Of a DNA stretch of 64,000 nt, positions 46,594-50,253 are shown piece after piece. The position numbers and the translations under genes were made by a program. The number at the start of each line of letters is the position of its first letter. Position 1 is the stretch's first letter. Origin of the DNA: a bacterium (GTDB lineage: Bacteria > Patescibacteriota > Microgenomatia > UBA1406 > GWC2-37-13); assembly GCA_021833625.1 (NCBI GenBank), contig JAKBEU010000001.1:372001-436000 (forward strand), read 5' to 3'. The notes under the pieces are model-generated. The model saw only the letters and a list, made by a program, of their open reading frames with translations, was not told the origin of the DNA and did not search any database.

Positions 46594-47688
46594 CTATCTC
46601 GTTATCTGGTAGCTTTTTACTGTCTCAAGCAGTTTTTTTGCTTCTTCGTTTTCTTCAAAGTGTTTTCGGACCGGTTGCAAAAGCTGATCTAAATAATTCA
46701 CGACTGCTGCCTTTAAATCCATCGGGTGCAATAATTTCTTTTCAAATGTATCGCACAGTTCCTGGTATGTTTTAAATGACAGATTGCCCCCAAATTTTTC
46801 CGGTCTTTCCACTAAAAACGCGGAAATATTCAACCGTTCAAACGATTCAAAAATAATGTATTTACAATATTCAAGAACCGGATTTTCCTTAATGTCCCCT
46901 TCCAGACAATATGCCTTATTGATTTTTCTTCGTATATCATCAGTCGTGTCGGTCATGAAAACGGCACTATCGGGCTTGGACTTTGACATTTTAAGCTCAA
47001 TAGTCCGCTGCAGTGCATCCTGCTCGCTTGAGACCGGTTTTCCCAGTCCCCGTAGCATGTGGTGACTTACAACGACAGGTTTCCAGTATCCAAGGACAGG
47101 TCCGACTTCGCGTGCCAACATGTTTACCTTACGCTGATCCATACCCAGTTGTGTTATTTTTGCACCCAACATAAAAATATCCGCAACTTGCATACATGAG
47201 TAGATAATATGAGCTCCGGTCAGTTTTTCAAGTGATTCTTCCCTTCCCATCATTTCTGCCGTGCGGATAAAGCGCTTCAAGGCGTTTGACTTACCCACCT
47301 GTACGACAAGCTTCCAGTATTCGGGATTTTTCGCCATGTCACTCGCCCACATAAACTCGACATTATTCAAATCCATTCCGCTTGCACGCCACACTTCGAT
47401 AAAATACTTTCCCACTGTTTTTATTTTCTCCAAATCCCCGCCCATTTTGTTGTTTGCCATTGCATGCCAATCGGCAACCCACATACGAAACTTCACGCCC
47501 GCCTTAATCATTTTATTCACGTTAATCGCACGAAGAAGACCCTGGGCAATATGAATTTGACCGGACGGCTCAAATCCGTCATATGCAATAAGCTGTTCTC
47601 CGCTTTCAAAAAGAGTTTTCAACTCTTCTGCTCCGATAACTTCTTCTCCTACCTGATTGATAAGATTCAGTCTGTCTTGTGTGTTCAT
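46594..47688 (-). CDS. tyrS: Tyrosyl-tRNA synthetase, archaeal/eukaryotic type
   Basis: 364 residues. Class I signature EPSGQIHIAQG (HIGH-type) and KMSKSKPDSAVFMTDTTDDI, which with RRKINKAYCLEG is the archaeal/eukaryotic TyrRS form. The bacterial C-terminal S4 domain is absent, as in archaeal enzymes (300-370 residues). It charges tRNA-Tyr, which is not in the window. It follows the PLP-lyase gene by 42 nt on the same strand and also has its own TATAAT 9 nt from the ATG, so it could be read both from the attenuated operon upstream and from its own promoter. Confidence 0.93.
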   Translation of the reverse strand: MNTQDRLNLINQVGEEVIGAEELKTLFESGEQLIAYDGFEPSGQIHIAQGLLRAINVNKMIKAGVKFRMWVADWHAMANNKMGGDLEKIKTVGKYFIEVWRASGMDLNNVEFMWASDMAKNPEYWKLVVQVGKSNALKRFIRTAEMMGREESLEKLTGAHIIYSCMQVADIFMLGAKITQLGMDQRKVNMLAREVGPVLGYWKPVVVSHHMLRGLGKPVSSEQDALQRTIELKMSKSKPDSAVFMTDTTDDIRRKINKAYCLEGDIKENPVLEYCKYIIFESFERLNISAFLVERPEKFGGNLSFKTYQELCDTFEKKLLHPMDLKAAVVNYLDQLLQPVRKHFEENEEAKKLLETVKSYQITR

Positions 47689-47697
47689 ATGTATCTC

Positions 47698-47703
47698 ATT
47701 ATA
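47698..47703 (-). promoter_or_regulatory. -10 box of tyrS
   Basis: TATAAT on the minus strand ends 9 nt before the ATG at 47688; predicted leaderless message. No clear -35. Confidence 0.45.
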
Positions 47704-47730
47704 GAAAATAATTAATAATTCACAACGGTA

Positions 47731-48765
47731 TCATTCCATCAGTGCCTGACGCAGATCATTAATAATGAAATTAACGTCCTCAATACCCACCGACATTCTC
47801 ACCAAGGTTCCCGTTATTTTTTGTTTTTTCAACTCCTCCTTGGGAGCGGTCCACGTCATCATGGAAAACGGATGAAGCAGTGTCGTCTGGGTTCCCCCAA
47901 AGCTATGCGCAATAGGAATATGCTTTAACTTCATAAGAAATGCCAGAGTGTCTTTTTCATCCCCCCTTATCCAGAATGAAACCACACCAGAAATACCGGG
48001 AAATACGCATCTCTCTACCCTTTGGTGATGGGCAAGAAAGTGGGCAACAAGTCGCGCATTCTTCTGGTGGGCCATCATACGTATTTTTAACGTCTGAATT
48101 CCTCTTAATACAAGCGCACAATCAAATGGACTTGGAACGGCTCCTAAGGTCCACTGGATATGACGCAATTGCTTAAATACAGCTGCATTATTCGTCATAA
48201 CTGCCCCGGATATGACATCGTGGTGTCCCGCAATATATTTGGTAAGACTATGCACGACGATATCTGCCCCACTTTCTAAAGGATGCGAAAAAACGGGTGT
48301 AGGTAAGGTGTTGTCAACAATAAAAAGCGTTTTTTTTCTTTTTATCTTCCCTATCTTTTCAATATTCAAACGCTGTAAACATGGATTAGTTATTGACTCG
48401 CACACCATCATCTGTGCACTTTCCATTCCTCGGCGTAATTCGTTTTCATTTGAGAAATCAACAGACGTATTTTTTATTCCAAACCGCCTAAACGTGTCTT
48501 GGAGCATGCGTGTCGTTCCTTCGTATACCTGGGTGTGACTTAAGACAGTATCTCCCGTTTTAAGTAATGAAAATACCGCAGCCAGTGCCGCAGACCCGGA
48601 CGCAAAAGACAATGCAAAACGCGCTTTCTCAAGACGTGCAAGTTCCGCCTCCAGTGCAAGCCGCGTAGAATTATCCACGCGGCTATATCCCATCTGACCA
48701 GGAAACAGATGCCTGGATATTGTTGAAATGGCAATTGGTTCGATTATCGGCATAAGGTTTTTCAT
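47731..48765 (-). CDS. Cys/Met-metabolism PLP enzyme (cystathionine gamma-synthase/lyase family)
   Basis: 344 residues, slightly shorter than the ~380-400 of CGS/CGL/MGL enzymes. Motifs: LSFASGSAALAAVFSLL (phosphate loop), VCESITNPCLQ (ESxxNP), FIVDNTLPTPVF (Asp for the PLP ring) and VVHSLTKYIAGHHDVISGAV with the Schiff-base Lys. It makes or breaks C-S bonds of sulfur amino acids, releasing thiols, 2-oxoacids or ammonia. Its ATG overlaps the stop of the methyltransferase by 4 nt, so the pair acts together. The operon lies behind two candidate tyrosine attenuators. Confidence 0.9.
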   Translation of the reverse strand: MKNLMPIIEPIAISTISRHLFPGQMGYSRVDNSTRLALEAELARLEKARFALSFASGSAALAAVFSLLKTGDTVLSHTQVYEGTTRMLQDTFRRFGIKNTSVDFSNENELRRGMESAQMMVCESITNPCLQRLNIEKIGKIKRKKTLFIVDNTLPTPVFSHPLESGADIVVHSLTKYIAGHHDVISGAVMTNNAAVFKQLRHIQWTLGAVPSPFDCALVLRGIQTLKIRMMAHQKNARLVAHFLAHHQRVERCVFPGISGVVSFWIRGDEKDTLAFLMKLKHIPIAHSFGGTQTTLLHPFSMMTWTAPKEELKKQKITGTLVRMSVGIEDVNFIINDLRQALME

Positions 48766-49682
48766 GTTGTTTCTTTCAAATTTGTAACCGTTTTTTTGAG
48801 GACAATATTATGCCTCGTACACTGAAGGGGCGGAACATGACTATCCTGTCCCTCTCGGGTGGCAATCTCAACAATATGAAAGCCGTCCTGTTCCCACATC
48901 CTTTTATGGTCGTCAAGGGTACGGAACCATTCTCCGTGCCCCTGCTTATCCTCCCCAAATACGACAAAGCTTTCGTTCGGCTCAATTTCTAAAATTGCGC
49001 CGCGTAATGCTTCAAAGTGGATTTGAGGAAAAGTGCGGGAGGCTTCCTCCAAATCATATATCCCCGTCTGTAGTGCGCGCACAATTTCATCTCCCAGCTC
49101 TTCCCTCACTCTTTCAAATGGGACAATATTTCTTCCTTCCGATTTCGAAAGATTGTCTGACGTTGTAATATTCACGACTGCAATTCCGCCAACTTTTAAT
49201 AGGCGTGCAGCTTCCTGGTCAATTGCACGATCTATCTCCGGAGGACAACAGTTACCGATATGATCCCTAAGAACGATATCTTGACTTCCTCCCTCTATTT
49301 TTGTATCGCGGGCATCGCATTGCAAGCACACCACCTTGTCAAGTCCCGAATTTTCTATAGCGGGAAAAATACCATCGCTTATGTCCACAGCAATTGTTGA
49401 AACTTGGCCAGACCCTAGACCATGCAATAACTTTTCAAAATCCCGAGGCCCCTCTGCTGTCGATATGCCGAGAATTGTCGAATTGACAGCTTTTCCCTCT
49501 AATTCAACCCCGAGCGCTTGGACAGAATCCATTTTGGCGAGATGTCCTACATTCACTCCCACCGTAGGCGTTTGATTCTTAACCGCATCCAGTCCTAGGC
49601 TCTCGAACAATCTCTGCGTATTTACGTACCCATTTGTGGCCCGAAATTCATGACCATCGGTGTATCCTCTAAATTCGTTCAT
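48762..49682 (-). CDS. SAM-dependent methyltransferase-like protein
   Basis: 306 residues. The central region has a class I methyltransferase layout: STIAVDISDGIFPAI (SAM-binding acidic loop), VVCLQCDARDT, SQDIVLRDHIGNCCPPEID (motif IV region) and ARLLKVGGIAVVNI (post-motif strand). The ~85 N-terminal residues and a C-terminal HNIVLKKTV strand flank it. The typical GxGxG loop is weak (GLGSGQ), so the call is moderate. It is the first full-length gene after the two peptide/terminator modules at 49707-49956, with the second terminator only ~25 nt before its ATG. Confidence 0.65.
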   Translation of the reverse strand: MNEFRGYTDGHEFRATNGYVNTQRLFESLGLDAVKNQTPTVGVNVGHLAKMDSVQALGVELEGKAVNSTILGISTAEGPRDFEKLLHGLGSGQVSTIAVDISDGIFPAIENSGLDKVVCLQCDARDTKIEGGSQDIVLRDHIGNCCPPEIDRAIDQEAARLLKVGGIAVVNITTSDNLSKSEGRNIVPFERVREELGDEIVRALQTGIYDLEEASRTFPQIHFEALRGAILEIEPNESFVVFGEDKQGHGEWFRTLDDHKRMWEQDGFHIVEIATREGQDSHVPPLQCTRHNIVLKKTVTNLKETT

Positions 49683-49706: not shown

Positions 49707-49736
49707 AAAAAACCGCCGTTTTTTTTGGGACGGCGG
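49707..49736 (-). terminator. Intrinsic terminator 2 (candidate attenuator) before the methyltransferase gene
   Basis: Minus strand: CCGCCGT (49736-49730), 10-nt loop, ACGGCGG (49719-49713), then six T. The 7-bp GC-rich stem is perfect. It lies between the second short ORF and the ATG of the methyltransferase, so it can cut the operon off. The 5' arm can instead pair with ACGGTGG at 49779-49773 inside the short ORF. Confidence 0.8.
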
Positions 49737-49762
49737 GTGTTGGTTTAGTGAAAAATATGGTA

Positions 49763-49834
49763 CTAAACGGGCCCACCGTAGAGGAGTTGATAATAATAGA
49801 AGCTGAATTGTTTAATAAGCTGGAATTTATTCAT
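49763..49834 (-). CDS. Candidate leader peptide 2 (23 aa, Phe/Tyr-rich)
   Basis: ATG at 49834, TAG at 49763. Three consecutive TAT Tyr codons (codons 13-15) follow Phe, and a fourth Tyr is at codon 19. Codons 19-21 hold ACGGTGG, which pairs over 7 bp (one G-U) with the 5' arm of terminator 2. It starts 8 nt after the T-run of terminator 1, so it would be translated only on read-through transcripts. No Shine-Dalgarno is visible; start uncertain. Confidence 0.4.
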   Translation of the reverse strand: MNKFQLIKQFSFYYYQLLYGGPV

Positions 49835-49842
49835 ATAAGGGC

Positions 49843-49869
49843 AAAAAAAATCCCCGCACTTGGGCGGGG
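49843..49869 (-). terminator. Intrinsic terminator 1 (candidate attenuator)
   Basis: Minus strand: CCCCGC (49869-49864), 6-nt loop, GCGGGG (49857-49852), one A, then eight T (49850-49843). A strong canonical hairpin. Its 5' arm CCCCGCC can instead pair with GGCGAGG at 49896-49890, directly at the stop codon of leader peptide 1 (6 of 7 pairs). Confidence 0.85.
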
Positions 49870-49895
49870 TTCTTCACACAACAAGACACCCTCGC

Positions 49896-49940
49896 CTACT
49901 GCGCGGGATAATAATATGTTGCTGCGTGATTAATACTCAT
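49896..49940 (-). CDS. Candidate leader peptide 1, MSINHAATYYYPAQ
   Basis: A 14-codon ORF. The ATG at 49940 lies 7 nt after a TGATATAAT extended -10, the same leaderless spacing as the real genes here. Codons 9-11 are TAT TAT TAT. The stop codon TAG is fused to the GGCGAGG segment that can sequester the 5' arm of terminator 1. Size, position and codon content fit an attenuation leader peptide sensing charged tRNA-Tyr. Confidence 0.5.
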   Translation of the reverse strand: MSINHAATYYYPAQ

Positions 49941-49947
49941 AAGAACA

Positions 49948-49956
49948 ATTATATCA
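49948..49956 (-). promoter_or_regulatory. Extended -10 promoter of the leader/methyltransferase/PLP operon
   Basis: TGATATAAT on the minus strand; its TGA is also the stop codon of the 99-residue gene upstream. The predicted start is at about 49941, next to the ATG of leader peptide 1. Confidence 0.6.
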
Positions 49957-50253
49957 TTTTTTTATTTTGTGTGCGCTTTTACTCCAAGCACCAAAGCGCG
50001 TGCCGCTTGGCATTGACCAGTATCGCGCGTTCCACGCCTTATATTCCAGATCAATCCGTGTTACAGCTTCAAATCCGGAGAGTCCTTTTATTTTTTTTGA
50101 AAGTTTTTTCGCCTCAATGGGTCCTCTTAAGTCTCCCCTCCCCCCCTGTTCAAGAAAAATCGTAGTACCGGCAGCAAAAGAAACATCTCCTTCCGTTTCG
50201 GAGGAAGAAATTCCTTCAAGTGGAGGCTGATATGTATCGCGCTCTCCTGACAT
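49954..50253 (-). CDS. Hypothetical protein (99 aa)
   Basis: I do not recognise the family. The N-terminal half is acidic and flexible (GISSSETEGDVSF, then a TTIFLEQGGRGD strand); the C-terminal half is basic with aromatic residues (LEYKAWNARYW, RFGAWSKSAHKIKK), suggesting RNA or membrane binding only loosely. The ATG at 50253 lies 6 nt after a TGATATAAT box that overlaps the stop of the acyl-CoA synthetase gene, so it has its own leaderless promoter. Its stop codon forms part of the next promoter. Confidence 0.6.
   Translation of the reverse strand: MSGERDTYQPPLEGISSSETEGDVSFAAGTTIFLEQGGRGDLRGPIEAKKLSKKIKGLSGFEAVTRIDLEYKAWNARYWSMPSGTRFGAWSKSAHKIKK

Follow-up and report, generated by a model that had tools for sequence, protein, structure and literature searches.

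The tyrosine locus and its predicted folding

The source genome (1.10 Mb, three contigs) is placed with Candidatus Roizmanbacteria (Microgenomates), and the window, the whole stretch of its DNA that was analysed, is 64,000 nucleotides long. The minus strand of the window carries two short ORFs in series, each with three consecutive tyrosine codons and each followed by a terminator, ahead of three genes of which the last is tyrS. In what follows A denotes the antiterminator segment of a module, B the 5' arm of its terminator and C the 3' arm. In the direction of transcription the features are as listed here.

49953-49948, minus strand: -10 promoter box TATAAT, 7 nt 5' of the ORF1 ATG and inside TGATATAAT at 49956-49948
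49940-49896, minus strand: leader ORF1, MSINHAATYYYPAQ, 14 codons, ATG at 49940; orthologues MTTSALQNYYYFQP, MKTHFSSTYYYFQL, MKNNFSAKYYYFLA and MKNVVSAKYYYLQP
49929-49919, minus strand: 5' arm of the protector (anti-antiterminator) hairpin of module 1, forming 11 bp with 49884-49874 in the fold without a ribosome
49916-49908, minus strand: Tyr codons 9-11 of ORF1, TAT TAT TAT; a Tyr or Phe/Tyr run is kept in relatives
49896-49890, minus strand: antiterminator segment A1, GGCGAGG, at the ORF1 stop codon; pairs at six of seven positions with CCCCGCC at 49869-49863
49884-49874, minus strand: 3' arm of the protector hairpin, from the same fold
49869-49843, minus strand: terminator 1, CCCCGCCCAAGTGCGGGG then a T run (sequence and fold)
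49834-49763, minus strand: leader ORF2, MNKFQLIKQFSFYYYQLLYGGPV, 23 codons, ATG at 49834; orthologues in relatives
49798-49790, minus strand: Tyr codons 13-15 of ORF2, TAT TAT TAT, kept in relatives
49779-49772, minus strand: antiterminator segment A2, ACGGTGGG, inside ORF2; pairs with CCCGCCGT at 49737-49730
49768-49743, minus strand: helper hairpin GTTTAGT...ACTAAAC, closing the loop of the module 2 antiterminator (fold; also in G001 and G002)
49736-49707, minus strand: terminator 2, CCGCCGTCCCAAAAAAAACGGCGG then TTTTTT (sequence and fold)
48762-49682, minus strand: first putatively controlled gene, methyltransferase-like, 306 aa (weak Methyltransf_11 match, just under the cut-off)
47731-48765, minus strand: second gene, Cys/Met-metabolism PLP enzyme (PF01053)
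46594-47688, minus strand: third gene, tyrS, TyrRS of archaeal/eukaryotic type (NF006330, 369 bits against a cut-off of 220)

A preliminary description of the region had placed on this strand a promoter, the 14-codon ORF with its TAT TAT TAT and a terminator at 49869-49843, then the 23-codon ORF with the same codon run and a terminator at 49736-49707, and each lies at those coordinates. It had also pointed to a segment in either module that can pair with the 5' arm of the terminator, and to a nearly equal geometry in the two. Both observations hold: the pairing of GGCGAGG with CCCCGCC is as described, that in module 2 now extends to eight pairs including one G-U, and the segment begins 11 nt past the last Tyr codon in ORF1 and 10 nt past it in ORF2. 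The protector hairpin of module 1 and the helper hairpin of module 2 had been overlooked. The methyltransferase, PLP enzyme and tyrS that it had named downstream were upheld by the family matches listed above; the functions of the first two have no tie to tyrosine, and tyrS charges the amino acid that would be sensed.

The TATAAT box is invariant in 10 aligned first modules from the lineage, and a -10-like box stands 5-12 nt ahead of the leader ATG in all 10. By the same measure it precedes 21 of 29 single modules, 13 of the 41 window ORFs of at least 150 aa and, within 40 nt upstream, none of 11 second modules; a Shine-Dalgarno-like core was seen at 4 of those 41 ORFs. With TATAAT 7 nt 5' of the ATG, transcription starting about 6-8 nt downstream of the box would yield a leaderless or near-leaderless mRNA, and the first leader ORF is thus probably leaderless or nearly so. 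As second modules have no promoter box, ORF2 would be transcribed solely through read-through of terminator 1; it has no Shine-Dalgarno site, and if transcripts begin at the single promoter 5' of ORF1 it is not leaderless either. The stop codon (TGA) of a 99-aa ORF without a family match (window 49954-50253) overlaps the -10 box.

How readily such an arrangement arises by chance was gauged with a scanner that looks for a terminator preceded by a segment able to pair with its 5' arm, where that segment lies within a short ATG ORF or at the end of one. Module 2 was the sole match in the 64 kb window, module 1 being missed on account of the one mismatch in its alternative pairing. Sixty dinucleotide-preserving shuffles of the window gave two matches in total and none with a residue triplet, a result that already tells against reading the region as two plain intrinsic terminators with Tyr runs nearby by chance.

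Folding was modelled with the RNA masked by a ribosome footprint from -12 to +14 of the P-site and with transcription halted ahead of the terminator 3' arm, the readout being the probability that upstream RNA holds the terminator 5' arm. For module 1 this antiterminator probability was 0.11 with no ribosome, 1.00 with a ribosome stalled on Tyr and 0.10 with one at the stop codon; the corresponding values for module 2 were 0.98, 0.98 and 0.02. The suggestion that a ribosome held on the Tyr codons would prevent termination and one at the stop would permit it is consistent with these folds of the alternative structures, which predict a stall-dependent switch in both modules. In the model the two differ in their default when no ribosome is present: module 1 is predicted to terminate, since the protector hairpin then sequesters A1, and module 2 to read through, owing to the helper hairpin within its antiterminator.

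Conservation and compensatory change in relatives

Short ORFs with YY were sought in the 1.5 kb around tyrS of relatives and no obvious leaders were seen, the leaders being located 5' of the operon's first gene; the effective search took the intergenic DNA as query. The congeners G001 (contig JAPLYQ010000151.1) and G002 (JAPLYR010000030.1) each have a pair of leader ORFs carrying Tyr or Phe/Tyr runs, with both terminators and the alternative pairing of either module, and the same tandem features recur in other genera, in G009, G022 (JACRJL010000001.1), G064, G067, G074, G090, G091 and further contigs. In G001, MTTSALQNYYYFQP and a terminator are followed by MNKFILIKQFSFYYYQLLYGGPV and a terminator, then by a gene of the tryptophanase/tyrosine phenol-lyase family (NF009709, 599 bits); G002 has the same arrangement, with tyrS 3' of the lyase. 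MKTHFSSTYYYFQL and MKNKSKLARQVSYYYYQLLYRRVIM lie ahead of another gene and tyrS in G009, and MKNLNPNFYFYFTREGGGEGCDC and MRNKRFLIKQTSYYYRELLYGGVPFHA ahead of a methyltransferase/PLP/tyrS operon in G022, where the methyltransferase-like protein is 62 % identical to that of the source genome; with this gene as search anchor it was found, among the relatives, in G022 only. With further leader pairs (L059/L098, L091, L102, L118, L127 and that of G091), tandem modules occur in at least 10 genomes. Different genes can occupy the position between the Tyr leaders and tyrS, which is filled by the methyltransferase and PLP enzyme in the source genome (operon 46594-49682) and G022, by the tyrosine phenol-lyase-like gene in G002 and by another gene in G009.

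Model R1, built on module 2, found 11 strong orthologues among 83 genomes of the order; as the RNAalifold structure on which it was based retained only two pairs, it acts much like a sequence profile, and its matches are not independent structural evidence. Within the SFYYYQLLY block of these orthologues, pairwise codon differences comprise 106 synonymous against 72 nonsynonymous, a synonymous excess as would be expected of a translated ORF.

The pairing segments change together. In G091 the set GGYGGG/CCCGCC/GGCGGG (A/B/C) has become GGAGGG/CCCTCC/GGAGGG, and the peptide still reads SFYYYQLLYGG, GGAGGG being Gly-Gly codons; since A, B and C have all altered, the change is a compensatory three-way one. 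The matched pattern GGGAGG...CCTCCC...GGGAGG-T has 22 matches in 19 of 72 family genomes. The mismatched pattern GGCGGG...CCTCCC...GGGAGG-T has three in the same 72, all of them GGCGGGAGG, which hence also contains the matching segment. About 50 matches to GGYGGG..CCCGCC..GGCGGG-T were found in the 72 genomes and none when the pattern was reversed, as was true of the reversed control in every pattern search (family, class and phylum sample). The predicted alternative pairings of both modules are thus preserved by compensatory change. Variation was seen in A1:B1, which has a mismatch in the source genome and a perfect GGCGGG in G001 and G002, and in the protector hairpin of module 1, which is absent from some orthologues.

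The GGYGGG flavour is present in 31 of the 72 family genomes. Outside the family the counts cover GGCGGG only, which occurs in 26 of 373 genomes of the class, mostly of the same family, and in 4 of 240 sampled across the phylum, two of these four lying outside the class; with so low a frequency elsewhere, we make no claim for the CPR in general. A scan of 85,000 species with the pattern TAYTAYNNNNNNCTNCTNTAYGGYGGG gave 23 stretches, of which only six, from Roizmanbacteria/Microgenomates, constitute a short ORF with a terminator; the others, lying in long genes or outside any short-ORF/terminator context, were rejected as leaders.

The preliminary description had held that hairpins kept in relatives while Tyr codons, short ORFs or alternative pairings were lost would speak for two plain terminators. 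This was looked for in the relatives and did not occur. Both terminators are indeed strong, and similar GC arms recur in the lineage, as plain terminators would explain. Such elements would not, however, keep Tyr runs, spacing and pairing, show covariation of A with the terminator arms, or carry leader codons that match the genes behind them (see below), and on this pattern of conservation we reject the plain-terminator reading, whose probability is negligible. To a T-box, or another leader that binds tRNA or a protein, we attach next to no likelihood: in Firmicutes tyrS is a classic target of the T-box, but what is conserved here is a three-way pairing together with a short ORF. No Rfam family, T-box RF00230 included, reached the gathering score in the window region or at 20 related loci, none of the described amino-acid operon leaders was matched there, and RF00230 had no match at E <= 5 in the region, the weak E-value matches that do occur belonging to unrelated families.

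The mismatch in A1:B1 of the source genome, together with the lack of a recognisable initiation signal for ORF2, might suggest that only one module regulates and that the other is a relic or plain terminator. We think this improbable, because both modules are retained together across genera in tyrosine, DAHP synthase and Thr-codon operons, which would be unexpected of a relic, and because a stall-dependent switch is predicted for each of them.

Proposed mechanism and a wider class of leaders

We conclude, with a probability of about 0.91, that the region comprises two ribosome-mediated transcription attenuators of the trp type in series, both sensing charged tRNA-Tyr, before an operon that ends in tyrS. 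From the anatomy, conservation, covariation and predicted structures described above, we infer that both ORFs would be translated and that control would run as follows. RNA polymerase would start at the single promoter a few bases 5' of ORF1. When Tyr-tRNA is short, the ribosome would stall in the Tyr run with its downstream edge leaving A free, and A would pair with the terminator 5' arm, so that no terminator forms and transcription goes on. When Tyr-tRNA is plentiful, a ribosome at the stop codon would cover A, the terminator would form and transcription would end. As the same test is repeated at module 2, the operon would be expressed only if polymerase passes both.

Similar candidate leaders, read from pattern and model searches (as were the further instances in the source genome), precede genes for other amino acids. 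Phe/Tyr runs stand before DAHP synthase (L118, L120, L170) and the transaldolase family (L125, L193), and His runs before hisS (L062, L192), histidine ammonia-lyase (L057, L067, L114), a histidine-racemase-like gene (L063, L116) and a hisC-like gene (L107). Ile/Leu/Val runs lead to the branched-chain aminotransferase ilvE (L079, L113), and LALLIL to leuA (L190); Ser runs lead to serB-serA (L133, L136, L139, L140, L146) or serB-like genes (L060, L137, L143), CCC to cysteine synthase (L141) and MMM to SAM hydroxide adenosyltransferase, a SAM hydrolase (L117). A leader with Trp codons, NWRNWQ, sits between a TrpR-like gene and trpB (L189, G028:C1:957500-962000), an arrangement that may combine a repressor with an attenuator, as in E. 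coli. Leaders with Thr or Cys-Thr runs occur in tandem (e.g. CTTTT + CTTTT) ahead of genes that match no family (L169, L180, L182, L191, L194). The GC cores of these tandem leaders differ, with CCCTCC in the first cassette and CCCGCC in the second. The observed match between leader residue and downstream enzyme was never reached in 100,000 permutations (35 elements; 14 classes taken once), and across the lineage the pathway of the downstream gene can be read, with exceptions, from the putative leader codons.

One exception is in the source genome (L186, G000:C2:111953-112059:+), where the candidate leader MKNNLSVLFIRLITPPRAG (VLFIRLI) precedes a PLP decarboxylase. The protein is named histidine decarboxylase by NF002748, above the cut-off, and this name does not match the leader codons; perhaps the named substrate is wrong, or the leader is a false match. 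In relatives, many Ile/Leu/Val leaders are followed by genes for large proteins that match no Pfam family. A second candidate leader in the source genome, MKTPNPNIFGVIIFVFCLILRL (G000:C1:223406-223465:-; L072, L128), lies 3' of a seryl-tRNA-synthetase-like gene and 5' of a 736-aa protein, the first 494 aa of which have no Pfam match.

Fifty elements were folded as above. The antiterminator probability was higher with the ribosome stalled than with it at the stop in 48, and by more than 0.3 in 41, values to be read as consistency and not as independent proof, since the elements had been chosen for A:B complementarity within or at the end of the ORF; the remaining nine show a weak predicted switch or none. 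The ORF extends beyond A in several elements, so that a ribosome at the stop would leave A uncovered, and the protector hairpin, present in module 1 and absent from module 2 of the tyrosine locus, is variable across the class. The spacing is independent of the selection for complementarity: A starts 11.2 +/- 2.6 nt past the last regulatory codon in the 50 elements, and at 8-14 nt in 44, a number that averaged 8.6 and at most reached 18 under random placement.

The wider class also bears on a nascent-peptide sensor of the TnaC type, in which (S/F)YYYQLLYGG would stall the ribosome at high free tyrosine and so induce the genes. Such a sensor would suit G001 and G002, where the peptide precedes a gene of the tryptophanase/tyrosine phenol-lyase family, and would account for the conservation of QLLY past the Tyr run although its codons change. 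The same leader is, however, also found before operons with tyrS, and Phe/Tyr-run relatives with different peptides precede DAHP synthase and transaldolase, genes that are needed in shortage. First modules have only the Tyr run in common, QLLY is limited to tyrosine second modules, and where the class extends to His, Ser, Cys, Met and Ile/Leu/Val its peptides are unrelated. We therefore consider peptide sensing unlikely, and prefer attenuation governed by the charging of tRNA-Tyr.

Histidine ammonia-lyase (L057, L067, L114) and tyrosine phenol-lyase/tryptophanase genes (L047, L059) were observed behind His and Tyr leaders of the shortage type. Both enzyme families are normally regarded as degradative; behind such leaders they may run in the synthetic direction, or another logic may be at work.

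There is, in our estimate, an even chance that a broader picture is correct, in which ribosome-mediated attenuation would be a main and modular form of amino-acid control in Roizmanbacteria and their close relatives among the Microgenomates, whose genomes measure about 1 Mb, extending to Tyr, Phe, His, Ile/Leu/Val, Ser, Cys, Met, Trp and probably Thr. Cassettes stacked in series would act as filters that respond to a single amino acid, as in Tyr+Tyr and Thr+Thr, or to a pair, as in Phe/Tyr then Tyr; the second cassette would be translated by internal, Shine-Dalgarno-independent initiation just past a terminator, and the tyrosine and histidine lyases may work synthetically.

Comparison with known systems

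Accounts of CPR bacteria usually portray them as extensively deficient in biosynthesis and, to our knowledge, little is known of their gene regulation. The leaders point to a lineage with elaborate and readable amino-acid control, in which leader peptides would tell which amino acid each operon answers to. Runs of leader codons would then offer a route to the function of unnamed downstream genes, for instance those that encode large proteins and follow Ile/Leu/Val leaders. Such control implies that these cells couple transcription to translation, and stacked attenuators become testable as sharper filters or as filters of combined signals.

In the open-access literature that was searched, no report joins CPR/Patescibacteria with leader-peptide attenuation. 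The preliminary description had called the arrangement undescribed; for that literature this stands for the combination and the lineage, but not for tandem or leaderless leaders as such, since each has precedents. What is new here is the tyrosine signal, the arrangement in series and the fact that a reduced CPR lineage uses such leaders widely; the mechanism itself is classical.

In the T-box of Firmicutes, the charging of Tyr-tRNA controls a tyrS operon through antitermination, by direct binding of the tRNA. The locus described here would likewise couple antitermination to Tyr-tRNA charging; it differs in that a translating ribosome is the proposed sensor and in giving no T-box match.

As far as sequence can tell, the locus has the defining features of trp-type attenuators: a codon run, a terminator before the structural genes, a covarying antiterminator, the spacing and, downstream, tyrS. 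With trpL, hisL, pheL and ilvL it shares a short leader ORF containing consecutive codons for the end product, mutually exclusive antiterminator and terminator and, in module 1 only, a protector hairpin. Unlike those attenuators, it has a run of Tyr codons only, ahead of an operon with tyrS, two modules in series, a probably near-leaderless ORF1, a module 2 without protector, no match to an Rfam leader sequence, and the recurring cores GGCGGG/CCCGCC/GGCGGG or GGGAGG/CCTCCC/GGGAGG.

In Sinorhizobium meliloti trpL (PMC7298713) and Corynebacterium glutamicum ilvBNC (PMC11857589) the transcript starts at the leader ATG or one base from it, and the ilvBNC leader forms terminator, antiterminator and anti-antiterminator hairpins (PMC11857589). 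Both thus have a leaderless leader ORF as predicted here, but they are single modules, from Proteobacteria and Actinobacteria, that respond to Trp and branched-chain amino acids. The leader of Salmonella mgtCBR contains two short ORFs and two attenuators (PMC3641672), which sense ATP and proline and control an Mg2+ transport/virulence operon, an arrangement that its authors call singular (PMC3641672). In the leaders described here, by contrast, both modules would read Tyr, or Phe/Tyr and then Tyr, and such tandem leaders are found in many genomes.
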